A DNA stretch of 64,000 bases, taken from the NCBI RefSeq assembly GCF_013179735.1, contig NZ_JABMEG010000001.1:2914001-2978000 (forward strand), in the 5' to 3' direction. The DNA is from Permianibacter fluminis (GTDB lineage: Bacteria; Pseudomonadota; Gammaproteobacteria; Enterobacterales; Permianibacteraceae). Under the pieces are notes generated by a model that saw nothing but the letters and a program-made list of their open reading frames with translations, searched no databases and was not told where the DNA came from. A program made the translations under genes and the position numbers. Below are positions 58,481 through 63,990 of this stretch, one piece after another; position 1 is the first letter of the stretch, and each line of letters begins with the position of its first letter.

Positions 58481-58484
58481 TGTC

Positions 58485-58622
58485 CGCGGAAGTAAATCTG
58501 CACCATCCAATCGCAATCTAAGTGTCTGATTTATAATGCCAAAATTTCATGCCTGATACTTATTTACTTCGCGAAGAAACGAAGTAAATTTGCCCCATTA
58601 CATATCTCGCGAAGTAAATTTG
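58485..58622. repeat. TnsB-site-like repeats of the left end
   Basis: Four copies of a unit close to CGCGAAGTAAATTTG: 58485-58500 (CGCGGAAGTAAATCTG), 58562-58573 inverted (ATTTACTTCGCG), 58580-58592 (CGAAGTAAATTTG) and 58608-58622 (CGCGAAGTAAATTTG). The first and last are both followed by CACC or TACCACC. A perfect TATAAT at 58532-58537 between them may be the tns promoter -10. Confidence 0.7.
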
Positions 58623-58695
58623 TACCACCGAGAAGAGACGATCTCGAGCCGTTTCGCCCCATCCCGGCGGTTTCCCTGTGGACGGGAGCCTGCCT

Positions 58696-59370
58696 GTGCC
58701 AAAACCCAGAATCGGCCTTCCCCAAGAGAGTGACGGGACCTTTTCCGTGCCCTTGGCGCGCCCGCTGCCGCAAAAGCAGCATGTCTTCTACGTTTGGAGC
58801 CCAAAGCTCAAGCGTCAGCTGCGGCTGTTCAGCCGTCTGGAGCTGGAAGCATGGGTCCTGCTCGAGGCCGACCCATCGGTCAAAACGTTCTGCGAGTATC
58901 CCTCCCGCTTCACCCTGAATGGACGCATCTATTACGTTTCGTTCTGGGTGTCCTCAGCCGGTGCCGCCACCTTCTGGTTTGTCGTGCCATCCGATGAAAG
59001 TCTCAGTCTCCGAACCACTCTTGGAAACGCTGCTGACCTAGTGTCGTGGGGAGCCCGCAATGGTATTGGGCTCAAGGTCGTAGACGAGACCGACACACGA
59101 AAGCATCCCGTTGGATTAGATAACTGGATACAGATCATTCACCACCTGGCTGCTAATGGCCAGTACGTAACCGAGCCGTTGCTCGAAGGCGTGCTGATCG
59201 CCGCAAAGGCTGGCCCTGTGTCTGTTGATGCCATTGTGAATCATCAGCAAGGCGTTGACCGGGAGATCTGCCTTGCGGCCATTTTTCAGCTGATACAAAA
59301 CGCCAAGCTGAAGTGTGAGGATCTGATGAGTTATCCGCTCAGCAATTCGCTGTTAGTGGCGGCCGCATGA
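58696..59370 (+). CDS. tnsA: TnsA-like protein, catalytic residues apparently lost
   Basis: 224-residue protein with the TnsA N-terminal fold: SPKLKRQLRLFSRLELEAWV with LLEADPSVKTFCEYP matches the first catalytic region. Further on the expected PDF...EVK core is replaced: RIYYVSFWV has Ser82 where the catalytic Asp belongs and TFWFVVPSDE has Phe95 and Val97 where Glu/Gln and Lys belong. TnsA normally cuts the 5' strand so the element moves by cut-and-paste. The C-terminal half has a TnsC-binding-like helical region. The GTG at 58696 has GGGAG upstream. Stop overlaps tnsB (ATGA). Confidence 0.78.
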   Translation: MPKPRIGLPQESDGTFSVPLARPLPQKQHVFYVWSPKLKRQLRLFSRLELEAWVLLEADPSVKTFCEYPSRFTLNGRIYYVSFWVSSAGAATFWFVVPSDESLSLRTTLGNAADLVSWGARNGIGLKVVDETDTRKHPVGLDNWIQIIHHLAANGQYVTEPLLEGVLIAAKAGPVSVDAIVNHQQGVDREICLAAIFQLIQNAKLKCEDLMSYPLSNSLLVAAA

Positions 59371-61364
59371 AAACCTTCGACTCCGCAGACAGGAACTTCA
59401 CGCGCGGGACGATTCCCAGCGAACTCGGCGATCTGAGTCTGTGGCCAACCGTTGATCAAACAGCACTTCCAGAAGAGGTGCTGGCGTCGTTCTGCAATCG
59501 CGTTGAGGCAATTCGGCTTTTTGTAGAACACTCATCGGTGAGCCTTGCTGATATCGAAAGGAAAACTGGAGTGCCTCGCCAGCGTATCGAGGGTCTATTC
59601 GCGAAATGTATCGCGGAGTCGTCTGATGGAAGGATGTGGGGCTTTCGCGCACTGATCCCTTACAAGTTCCGCAAGGGTTACGAGCGGAGGAAGAAGGCGT
59701 CGATAACACGAAGTGGTTCAGGTGGCGATTCCGGACTTTTTGCTCAATTGTTGCTGCGCCACGGTGTGCTTGTTGAATTTATTGACAAGGAGATTAGAAA
59801 TCGGGCTGTCCCTATCAAATCATTGCGGCAGGTCCGCATCTACCTGATTGATTTGCATAGCAAGTTCATCGAACTGTGCAGAGGGTTGAACATCAAAAGC
59901 AGTGAATACCCGTTTAACCGAGACGAGATGGGATTGCGATCGCTCCAACAGTACGTCAAAAAGAGACTGAGCAGCTCATTCGAACTGGCGGCAAGAAGTG
60001 AGGGCGCAACCTACGTCCGGCCAGCGAGGCATGGCCATGAGCTACAAAGGAGCCGACCAGCCATCAGGCTGCTGGATGAAGTGCAGATCGACGGGCATCG
60101 CATAGATCTCCGCCTTTCCATCGCGATTGCCGACCCGTTCGGCATGGAAACGATAATTGAAATCGAAAGAGTCTGGATCTTGGTGGTGGTGGATGTCGCG
60201 ACACGATCCGCGCTTGGCTATAGCCTTGCAATTGCACGGCAATACAGCGCCAACGACGTGGTCAATGCGATATGCAACGCGCTGATACCCCAAGCCCCCC
60301 GAAAACTCACCATTCCCATGCTGGCATATCCTGCGGGCTCAGAATTTCCCAATTTCCGGTTTCCGGAGATGGCATACGCCTGTTGGCGAGTACTGGCACT
60401 TGATCGTGCGAGTACACACCTTGCACAGAACACGTTGGCACTGGTGACTCGTACCGTCGGATGCTGGACAGACGCCGGGCCGGTTGGCGAGCCGATCGTA
60501 CGAGGTGTTGTGGAACGTTTCTTCCATCTGCTGAGTCAGCACTTTGCTCACAAGCTACCAGGAACGACAGGGCGCAGCCCGGACGATATTGCCAGAGTGC
60601 TGGCAGATCCAGACAACAATATCAAATGGCTGATGCGGCTGAACGAGCTCGAGGAACTGATTGATGTCGTCATTGCTGAGCACAACTGTTCGCCGACCAT
60701 AGGGCTCGGCGCCAGAACGCCGCTTGAGGCGGTCGACTTCCATCTGCGCAAGCTCAAGGAGTCAAACCAGGAGTTGCGTCATATTCCCTCCTCGAAGCGC
60801 TCCGATCTCTATCTGCTCCACAACGAGAAAGTGGTTACGGTGCGGGGGAGCCTCAAAAAAGGGGATCGACCTCATATCAACTTTCACGGCGCAGAATACA
60901 CCAACTCGACCATGGAGAAGTTGCCGCAGCTGATAGGGACGGAGCTACGCATACGCTATAACGAAAACGACATATCCAGCATGAAGGCGTTCTACATGGA
61001 TGGCGCGGAGTTCGGAATCATCATTGCAGAACATCCATGGAGCAGCACACCACACTCGTTGAAGCTGCGCAAAGCCATTCTTCGCGCGCAGCGACTTGGT
61101 CGATTCAAGATCCGACCTGGCCAGAACCCCATTGCTGCGTATCTTGAATTCAAAGAGGCCCAGGTGACCGGATCAAGACAGGCGGCAACCAGCTATGCCT
61201 GGGCGTTGAAACAGGTATCTGCAAGCCAAGCTAGCCGGCCGGGCGCATTTCCAGATCATCCGGGCGAAAGTGAGCCGCTTACCGTTGAGCCACGGCAACC
61301 AACCGCGGACGGCATACCAGCGGTCAAAACACTTCGCATCAAGCAAACATTTCATTCCCGATAA
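59367..61364 (+). CDS. tnsB: Tn7-like transposase TnsB (DDE integrase)
   Basis: 665-residue retroviral-integrase-fold transposase. N-terminal helix-turn-helix (SVSLADIERKTGVPRQRIEG), DDE triad Asp242 (DEVQIDGHRIDL), Asp346 (LALDRASTHLA) and Glu383 (GVVERFFHLL) with a D-36-E spacing, then a Mu-type beta-barrel (RGSLKKGDRPHINFHGAEYT) and a basic C-terminal tail that should contact TnsC. It cuts and joins the 3' ends. The triad looks intact. Confidence 0.92.
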   Translation: MKTFDSADRNFTRGTIPSELGDLSLWPTVDQTALPEEVLASFCNRVEAIRLFVEHSSVSLADIERKTGVPRQRIEGLFAKCIAESSDGRMWGFRALIPYKFRKGYERRKKASITRSGSGGDSGLFAQLLLRHGVLVEFIDKEIRNRAVPIKSLRQVRIYLIDLHSKFIELCRGLNIKSSEYPFNRDEMGLRSLQQYVKKRLSSSFELAARSEGATYVRPARHGHELQRSRPAIRLLDEVQIDGHRIDLRLSIAIADPFGMETIIEIERVWILVVVDVATRSALGYSLAIARQYSANDVVNAICNALIPQAPRKLTIPMLAYPAGSEFPNFRFPEMAYACWRVLALDRASTHLAQNTLALVTRTVGCWTDAGPVGEPIVRGVVERFFHLLSQHFAHKLPGTTGRSPDDIARVLADPDNNIKWLMRLNELEELIDVVIAEHNCSPTIGLGARTPLEAVDFHLRKLKESNQELRHIPSSKRSDLYLLHNEKVVTVRGSLKKGDRPHINFHGAEYTNSTMEKLPQLIGTELRIRYNENDISSMKAFYMDGAEFGIIIAEHPWSSTPHSLKLRKAILRAQRLGRFKIRPGQNPIAAYLEFKEAQVTGSRQAATSYAWALKQVSASQASRPGAFPDHPGESEPLTVEPRQPTADGIPAVKTLRIKQTFHSR

Positions 61365-61373
61365 GGGGGGCTT

Positions 61374-62387
61374 ATGGAGGCAGTGGCCGAGATTACCCAG
61401 TCCATGGATCTGATACGCCCCATGGCTATTGCAAATCATCCCTTGACGAACAAGGACTATACGATACCCACGCCTGCGATTGATGCGATGGTGTCAATGG
61501 CCATGCGTTGTATCGAGCAACGCATCCCTGGTGCGATCTTGGAAGGGATTAACCGCAGCGGCAAGACCACCGGAATTGGTTATACGGTGCAAACCTTGAA
61601 AAAAGAGGTGCCAGACGCTGCTGTTTATCGATTCTCCTGCACACGGGACCTCACAGACAATCCCAGCGACTTCTTCTCGCACCTGTTGTACTCCTTTAAT
61701 CATCCGGACCCGTTCAGCGGAAAAAGCCGACAGAAAAGAGTGCGTCTGACCGAAATGCTGAGAAAAAATGCCGGCAAAGGCCGGCGAGGGCTTGTCGTCC
61801 TTTTTGCGGATGAAGCGCAGCGTCTGTCCTACAACATGTATTCGTGGCTGGCTGACATTTACAATGAACTGGACGCGAAGCGAGTGACGGTCATTACCTT
61901 TCTTGTCGGTCAGCCCGATCTCGCCAACCAGAAGGTTGCGCTCATCAAAGCCAACAAGATGGAAATTGTTGGCCGATTCATGGTCCAGCACCTTCGTTTC
62001 AATGGCCTGACGTCTGCATCTGACGTCGCGACCTGTTTGAACGCCTACGACGAATCCTGCTGCCCTGAAGAGTCGGGTTGGAGTTATACCCGATTTTTCT
62101 TTCCCAAGGCCTATCTGTGCGGGCTGCGCGCGGTCAATTCGGCGACGACATTGTGGAATGTCTTTCAGAAGCATCATGAGGTTGCGGGTTCACCAGGCGA
62201 GCTCGAAATTCCCATGCAGTACTTTGCTGGTGCAGTTGAGCACATCTTTCGCAACTACTCCGGTGAAGACAATGCAGATTTCGGGGTCAGTGAGCGCATG
62301 TGGGCCGGTGCCGTCGAAGAAACCGGATTCAAGGAGCAGGAAGAAAATCTGCGTCTGCGCATGACCATGTCGGTGCAAGATGTCTGA
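61374..62387 (+). CDS. tnsC: Transposition AAA+ ATPase TnsC
   Basis: 337-residue AAA+ regulator. Walker A GINRSGKTT (58-66), Walker B LVVLFADEAQ with Asp146-Glu147, sensor region VITFLVGQPDLANQK. It links target selection (TniQ) to TnsB through ATP-dependent filaments on DNA. AAGGGGGG precedes the ATG, 9 bp after tnsB. Confidence 0.92.
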   Translation: MEAVAEITQSMDLIRPMAIANHPLTNKDYTIPTPAIDAMVSMAMRCIEQRIPGAILEGINRSGKTTGIGYTVQTLKKEVPDAAVYRFSCTRDLTDNPSDFFSHLLYSFNHPDPFSGKSRQKRVRLTEMLRKNAGKGRRGLVVLFADEAQRLSYNMYSWLADIYNELDAKRVTVITFLVGQPDLANQKVALIKANKMEIVGRFMVQHLRFNGLTSASDVATCLNAYDESCCPEESGWSYTRFFFPKAYLCGLRAVNSATTLWNVFQKHHEVAGSPGELEIPMQYFAGAVEHIFRNYSGEDNADFGVSERMWAGAVEETGFKEQEENLRLRMTMSVQDV

Positions 62388-63990
62388 GCGCAGGGTTCGC
62401 AAGCCTCTTCAGATCCAGGTGGCACAACCGGAAGCGGTGGAGTCTCGATACACCTGGCGAACGGACTGGGTAAACCGCTATGAGTCTAGCTATGGCTTAC
62501 TCAGCAAATTTGCCTATCTGAATGGACTGGGTCTGCAGCAGCTGGTTACTCTGTTTGTCCGGCGAGAGCCAAGAGGGAAGGTGACGACTGCACGGAATAG
62601 CGGTATCGATCTGATCTCGATGGGCGTGATATCCACTTCGGCTTTGTCGACACATGCAGAGCTGTCCGGGCAACAGGTCCAGCAGGCTTCTCTGGAAGGC
62701 TCGTGGGACAAAACCATGTATCCGTGGACTGCGGATTTTCGGTTTTGCCCCGCCTGCTTGGCAGCGTGCTACCACAGCACGCTGCACCAATTGGTGTTTC
62801 TTGCCAAGTGCCCCGCACACAACCGCCGGCTGCAAACCCACTGCCCGCAGTGTCACGCCGTCATGCCGTATCGCTTCACGGCCGCAGTAGCCGCCAATCC
62901 TTTTTGCTGCCCACACTGCGAACTGCCCTGGGCGCCAGCACTTTTCGAAAAAGCTAAAGGCTATCCGCTGCTTCATCAACGCCACGTGGAGCGGCTGAGC
63001 AAAACTTGGAAGGTCCTGTCTGGCGACCGCAGGCGCTTTGGTGTGCTGGTCAATTGCTCAACCCATCCGGCCTTTGCAAGGGACTTGGAGAACGGTCACC
63101 AGTTGGCATTGATGGCACGCCGTCGAGAGGAGTTTTTCAGTTTCTTGGCAAGGCTGGACCGGGCCGTTGCTCAAGATGCAGCCCAACTGCACATGGACGA
63201 TCAGGACCTACTGCAATTGCATTCGGGCCCCATGGCCTCGCATGCTGGCCATGGGCCTGCCGAGAAAGGCACCAAGATCACTCGGCCTTGGTTCGAGAAT
63301 GACAGCAAGTTCTGGTCTGTACTCCCCATCTACAAAGCCATCTGCCGGCATTTTTTTCACCATGTCGTTGCGTCACATCGCGATTGCATCGCTGCCACGG
63401 TGCGACACCTTTGGTGGCACATGGAGGGGCGAGCGTCCGAGCCGATCTGTCCGGTGGCGTATGCATTCGTGATGTGGCGCATGTTCTGGGAGGAATGTGG
63501 AACGCCACATCAGCTGATGGAGCCACCACGTCATGCACCCTATCGCATCCTCGCGTGGTTGTCCGACGCGGCACCCTATTGTCCAGCGACATGGCCTACT
63601 GAAACGCAGGAATGGCTGCGGCACCGTGTGTTTGCAGCGGATTGTCTTGCGACCTTTGAGCACTGGTTGGCTCGGGCCGCCCATGTCTCGGCCAAGCGTC
63701 AGATGTGGCAATGGAACCGACATGTAGGCTGCGGACACATGATCACCTATTGGGCTGCCCTCGAATCGAAAACGACACCCCGCGAGGTCACAGTACTCAT
63801 GGAACCACTGGTAGGCTGCCATCTGCCCCCCAGCGCGGAGACGGGCCGGCCGCATTATCAGCGACATCTGGAAACCCTGAAGGGAATGACACCCTATAAA
63901 CCGGAGCGCCATCGTCAGTGGTCATCGCGCAATCCAAAACGGTTCAAGATAGGGCATTATGCCAACAGCGAGCCGAGGCTTGAGCGGTAA
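62380..63990 (+). CDS. tniQ: TniQ/TnsD-family target selector
   Basis: 536-residue protein overlapping tnsC by eight bases. N-terminal TniQ region (NRYESSYGLLSKFAYLNGLG) with zinc-finger pairs FCPACLAACYHSTLHQLVFL, CPAHNRRLQTHCPQCHAVMP and NPFCCPHCELPW; the C-terminal half is unlike anything I recognise and may read the target DNA, as in TnsD. Length fits TnsD (about 500) more than the short CRISPR-associated TniQ. Confidence 0.88.
   Translation: MSERRVRKPLQIQVAQPEAVESRYTWRTDWVNRYESSYGLLSKFAYLNGLGLQQLVTLFVRREPRGKVTTARNSGIDLISMGVISTSALSTHAELSGQQVQQASLEGSWDKTMYPWTADFRFCPACLAACYHSTLHQLVFLAKCPAHNRRLQTHCPQCHAVMPYRFTAAVAANPFCCPHCELPWAPALFEKAKGYPLLHQRHVERLSKTWKVLSGDRRRFGVLVNCSTHPAFARDLENGHQLALMARRREEFFSFLARLDRAVAQDAAQLHMDDQDLLQLHSGPMASHAGHGPAEKGTKITRPWFENDSKFWSVLPIYKAICRHFFHHVVASHRDCIAATVRHLWWHMEGRASEPICPVAYAFVMWRMFWEECGTPHQLMEPPRHAPYRILAWLSDAAPYCPATWPTETQEWLRHRVFAADCLATFEHWLARAAHVSAKRQMWQWNRHVGCGHMITYWAALESKTTPREVTVLMEPLVGCHLPPSAETGRPHYQRHLETLKGMTPYKPERHRQWSSRNPKRFKIGHYANSEPRLER

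Follow-up and report, generated by a model that had tools for sequence, protein, structure and literature searches.

How does a Tn7-like element move when its TnsA has lost the residues that cut DNA, and why would it keep the protein at all? The locus considered here lies near the end of a 64,000-nucleotide stretch of Permianibacter fluminis (the window; G000:C1:2914001-2978000). A preliminary description of it proposed that TnsA had lost its nuclease motifs in an otherwise intact element, had perhaps become structural, and would leave transposition to yield cointegrates. The evidence assembled below suggests that TnsA is probably kept as a non-catalytic subunit in an ancient nuclease-less clade, whose members transpose replicatively through cointegrates.

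The element and its transposition genes

The features are listed by position in the window, except those prefixed G000:C1, which are contig coordinates:
58476..58480, no strand assigned: target-site duplication GGGGA, left copy, 5 bp
58481..58504, + strand: left terminal repeat TGTCCGCGGAAGTAAATCTGCACC, containing TnsB-like site 1 (58489-58504)
58581..58596, + strand: TnsB-like site 2 (spacing 92)
58611..58626, + strand: TnsB-like site 3 (spacing 30)
58696..59370, + strand: tnsA-like gene, predicted nuclease-dead (longest frame from 58678)
58840..58842, + strand: codon of Glu55, equivalent to Glu63 of Tn7 TnsA, retained
58939..58941, + strand: codon of Ser88, at the place of Asp114 of Tn7 TnsA
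58984..58986, + strand: codon of Val103, at the place of Lys132 of Tn7 TnsA
59367..61364, + strand: tnsB-like DDE transposase, 665 aa
61374..62387, + strand: tnsC-like AAA+ ATPase, Walker A and B intact
62380..63990, + strand: tniQ/tnsD-like target selector, 536 aa, TniQ domain
G000:C1:3042529 (final position): right end TGTCCACGGAAGTAATTTTGTACC (reverse complement)
G000:C1:3042530-3042534: GGGGA duplication, right copy, beyond the window

All four transposition genes are full length and tightly packed. The longest tnsA frame (58678-59370) begins with GTG and encodes 230 aa; the GTG at 58696, 3' of a GGGAG, is the more plausible start, and residues are numbered here from 58678. The tnsA stop overlaps the tnsB ATG (ATGA, 59367). 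In TnsB the catalytic Asp242 (60090), Asp346 (60402) and Glu383 (60513) are intact and invariant across 11 sequences. TnsC carries GINRSGKT as Walker A, LVVLFADEA as Walker B and an AAA_22 domain (E 5.5e-12), and the last gene product a TniQ domain (E 6.3e-7), both above the curated cut-offs. The TnsB and TnsC motifs are thus intact, as initially described, with the DDE residues and both Walker motifs kept. The assignment as Tn7-like is also borne out, by the intact DDE TnsB, the adjoining TnsC and TniQ/TnsD, the TnsB sites at the ends and the 5-bp duplication.

The element ends in TGTCCGCGG.../...CCGTGGACA, with GGGGA on either side and a length of 70,049 bp. The termini read TGTCC.../...GGACA, and three TnsB-like sites on the left face three inverted sites on the right, 70 kb away. 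This left-end plan (three sites with spacings of about 80-96 and 29-30 bp) recurs across the clade. Most clade elements start 5'-CGT and finish ACG-3' (L012, L019, L020, L022, L058, L062, L067, L083, L121 and others), and the window element and that of Robbsia keep TGT ends, as in Tn7-like TGT/ACA. The joined flanks of the island are absent from all 40 related genomes examined, so that the boundaries rest on the ends and the duplication. The genome holds one copy of the element.

The cargo is mainly metal resistance: MerR regulators, an FTR1/cytochrome lead-type uptake gene, P-type ATPases and RND efflux sets, named by eye from sequence except where a domain matched. This mostly metal-resistance cargo spans about 57 kb (G000:C1:2985050-3042084), with mercury-type genes at the right end. 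Near tniQ lies a gene for an SMC-like ATPase (2978669-2981332). A tyrosine recombinase follows 9 kb into the island (G000:C1:2981912-2983312; Phage_integrase domain, E 5e-17), and its neighbours are an Xre/ParS-type gene on the upstream side and a divergent KfrA_N gene.

TnsA in the window and across the clade

Is the first protein of the operon a TnsA? Searched against Pfam, NCBIfam and PDB sequences it gives no match, and Pfam TnsA_N fails to recognise it. With no hit in the sequence databases to start from, homology was established in steps. Profile-profile alignment (hhalign) of the catalytically dead TnsA rows with intact relatives covers 191 columns (Prob 99.3, E 1.9e-20), and the intact relatives, together with canonical TnsA, align to solved TnsA chains. 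An AlphaFold model built on 63 natural sequences reaches a pLDDT of 91.7. Its best PDB matches, clear of all others, are Tn7 TnsA (1f1z/1t0f) and the TnsABCD-DNA transpososome (9bw1), with Foldseek E values of about 1e-7 and Z of 10.8-10.9 (1f1z: E 1.1e-7, Z 10.9). The window protein is a member of the TnsA-fold family, and the structure model that had been proposed as a check shows a confident TnsA fold.

The motifs VSF and FVV read as first described, where TnsA has (P)DF and E/Q-x-K. The profile alignment places Ser88 on the Asp, Val103 on the Lys and Glu55 on the Glu of intact relatives; the counterparts in Tn7 TnsA we take, partly from the known Tn7 sequence, to be Asp114, Lys132 and Glu63. 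The retained third residue, Glu55 (in FSRLELEAW), was absent from the preliminary description. The PD-(D/E)XK pattern is accordingly broken, with Glu kept, Ser for Asp and Val for Lys, so that two of the three catalytic residues are gone. A catalytic Asp or Lys elsewhere in the fold was to be the counter-evidence, and the sequence offers no conserved substitute Lys near the active site. Two motifs lost in frame within a full-length protein, with the Lys missing from 86 other rows as well, go far beyond chance or sequencing error. Judged by its residues, the window TnsA is very probably nuclease-dead.

How widespread is this state? Scanning genomes with back-translated TnsA by itself gave no match, nor did a DNA similarity search of plasmids with the operon or a search of viral contigs, and there were no close relatives among 394 genomes of the host's order. 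Loci were gathered by TnsB similarity alone, 80 in all, and 79 of them have a TnsA-like frame immediately upstream of tnsB. In L056 and L087 TnsA and TnsB seem to be fused, which looks like the result of a frameshift in a draft or decayed copy. TnsA homologues occur in 41 plasmid records, nearly all from Burkholderiales, and are mostly annotated as "hypothetical protein" or not at all; one Klebsiella relative, with a full catalytic triad, is annotated TnsA. Equal TnsB bit scores in four genomes of genus g231 (G712:C3:38945, G727:C3:217178, G641 and G704) suggest recent spread of one element.

No clade row (0/87) has the full Glu/Asp/Lys set, against all four intact outgroup rows. None has a Lys at the place of Lys132, and a Lys within two residues of it occurs in six rows, at differing spots. 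The Glu equivalent to Tn7 Glu63 is lost in 85 of the 87. The E/Q position of the E-x-K strand is L, V or I in 81, turning the strand hydrophobic. The Asp is kept in 83 rows, with a conservative Glu in three and Ser in the window alone, so that some residual TnsA activity may persist in most clade members. Outside the triad, Lys43, Arg46, Glu63, Glu73 and Asn149 (window numbering) are invariant.

In the TnsB tree, a 98% branch separates the 90 clade rows with dead TnsA from the four intact ones; the branch leading to the window TnsB is long (1.73), and the exact position of that TnsB is unsure. The loss, initially described as an event in this element, is instead a property of the whole clade. 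The dN/dS of tnsA is 0.10-0.39, near the TnsB values, over 27 pairs with a computable ratio, which include one intact pair and one from a second dead lineage (Bacillaceae); the window TnsA has no close relative, and the selection figures come from its relatives. Clade-wide retention, purifying selection and the confident fold agree with the suggestion that TnsA is retained as a structural subunit. Dead TnsA is almost certainly clade-wide and retained under selection. Degenerate TnsA is also seen in the Bacillaceae lineage (L106, L113, G477, G480, G482 and G483), with Asp replaced by Asn and the Lys lost, probably an independent loss.

Transposition mode and its products

How would such an element transpose? 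TnsB would cut and join the 3' ends, while the dead TnsA would still help assemble the complex by docking on TnsB, on the ends of the DNA and/or on TnsC. With the 5' strands left uncut, replication running across the joined ends would give a cointegrate, as happens in Tn7 engineered to carry a catalytic mutation in TnsA. The cointegrate might later be resolved by the element's tyrosine recombinase (candidate 2981912-2983312) or by host recombination, or never. The island's own recombinase is a possible resolvase, proposed tentatively from its sequence.

The window copy, being single with a perfect GGGGA duplication, fits a resolved cointegrate and cut-and-paste alike, and the product evidence comes from relatives. 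Fifteen copies with a clear terminal pair lie on complete plasmids; two of them (L020 and L118) are identical and from one strain, leaving 14 distinct elements, and matching 5-bp flanks were found at none of the 14. Duplications are present at L067 and L083, which are compact elements with dead TnsA from draft genomes. The intact-TnsA control (L014) likewise has no matching flanks; its ends are guessed and it is the sole such element, making it a weak control, and the Bacillaceae intact-TnsA elements, whose ends are not callable, fall outside the comparison. In L014 (4302-8790, on a Klebsiella plasmid), nucleotidyltransferase, ThiF, Mov34/MPN and SAVED genes (CBASS-like) adjoin the element.

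Paraburkholderia PGU19 carries 100% identical copies on plasmids p3 and p1 (L020 8787-13467 and L118 4001-8681), flanked as ACGAG-E-GATGC and ATTGA-E-ACGAG, so that ACGAG is shared reciprocally, one side each. The sequence rebuilt across ACGAG from both plasmids aligns unbroken in P. terrae, and P. largidicola has the same gene order as the rebuilt locus. Each of the two remaining flanks matches a separate locus in other plasmids. A single ancestral SET-HU locus is divided between L020 and L118, each holding one half. Such a pattern is left by replicative events or by recombination between copies, and not by simple insertion alone. Homologous recombination between copies can be another source of missing duplications and split targets. 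Taking these products from relatives together, we infer that replicative transposition is likely the main route.

Are resolvases carried along? In L097 and Robbsia L016 the element itself includes a tyrosine-recombinase gene, placed immediately behind tniQ. In 66 loci the sequence extends 7.6 kb or more upstream of tnsA; 18 of them have a tyrosine-recombinase gene within the first 3 kb (16 of these antisense), against two in the following 4.5 kb. At loci with a callable left end (L012, L015, L043, L044, L046, L048 and L101), the left-end sites place these genes beyond the element or right at its border, and they were rejected as element-borne resolvases. Their position suggests that the elements favour such genes as targets, much as Tn5053 hunts res sites.

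Could TnsA still cut after all? If its nuclease centre had moved or were unconventional, built for instance around the invariant Glu63/Lys43 of the window protein, transposition could still be cut-and-paste, and this would suit the Asp in 83 of 87 rows, the invariant Glu (Glu71 in Tn7 numbering) with Lys43/Arg46, and the clean 5-bp duplication of the window copy. However, the window has lost the Asp too, no conserved Lys takes the place of Lys132 and the E-x-K strand is now hydrophobic. Glu71, the Lys and the Arg have counterparts in intact TnsA and are thus not a replacement, and we consider such a centre improbable. Alternatively, another nuclease of the host or the island might cut the 5' strands to give a simple insertion, with TnsA structural only. 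Mu-type elements can complete insertion with host functions, and the single window copy with its clean duplication would fit. Yet compact relatives of about 4.6 kb encode little beyond tnsABC-tniQ, with no conserved nuclease and scarcely room for one, and the missing duplications and the split PGU19 target fit cointegrate-type events better, making this route unlikely.

It is also conceivable that the element has lost or is losing its activity, with tnsA a pseudogene in decay, as the long TnsB branch (1.73) and the want of a close relative might hint. The four full-length packed genes with their DDE and Walker residues, the intact ends and duplication, and a loss common to a whole clade under purifying selection make decay very improbable.

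For the preferred reading, a retained non-catalytic TnsA and replicative transposition, the history may be broader: one ancient loss of the nuclease would have founded a large, mainly Burkholderiales clade, from 4.6-kb IS-like elements to 70-kb metal islands, in which TnsA is obligatory and transposition replicative-only, partly beside tyrosine-recombinase genes. To this history we give slightly less than even credence. On the preferred reading itself, the two jobs of TnsA are separated in nature, with end cutting lost and the protein kept for very long times; the dead-TnsA clade makes the structural role directly testable, and replicon fusions and rearrangements are predicted from a family common on Burkholderiales megaplasmids.

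Comparison with known systems

The literature searched, a limited collection, holds no report of a natural, retained, catalytically dead TnsA. The Pfam TnsA model matches 5 of 63 rows and misses nearly all dead-TnsA genes, so that HMM surveys may have scored such elements as TnsA-less; TnsA calls came from Pfam models in two studies (PMC8649781, which added CAST-made models, and PMC10293859).

The nearest intact-TnsA relatives found, Klebsiella grimontii CP079755 and Bacillaceae elements (L014, L108, L109 and L112), have the same operon order but complete Glu, Asp and Glu-x-Lys. The Tn6022 element (TnsA, TnsB, TnsC, TniQ, TnsF and TnsE) shares the TnsABC-TniQ core and gives mixed products, simple insertions and cointegrates (PMC10293859); it inserts in comM with TnsF, whereas the window island lies between two other genes.

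Tn5053/Tn402 (TniA-TniB-TniQ-TniR) and type V-K CAST share the predicted cointegrate pathway and the absence of an active TnsA, and Tn5053 also has a resolvase in the element. Those systems have no TnsA gene at all, while the window keeps a full-length TnsA homologue and so falls outside the Tn5053/Tn402 family as defined by absence of TnsA and presence of TniABQR. Branches lacking tnsA tend to gain resolvases, and replicative transposition is predicted for them (PMC8649781).

With Tn7 of E. coli (TnsABCD) the window element shares the tnsA-tnsB-tnsC-tniQ/tnsD order, the TnsA fold, TnsB-site arrays at TGT.../...ACA ends and the 5-bp duplication. It differs in a TnsA without Asp114 and Lys132, a much shorter TnsC and no tnsE seen. 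Mutations in the TnsA catalytic site end cut-and-paste and spare replicative transposition (PMC8649781). Engineered Tn7 of this kind is in the same state as predicted here (TnsA present, nuclease dead, replicative products), except that in the window this state is natural, ancient and common to a clade.
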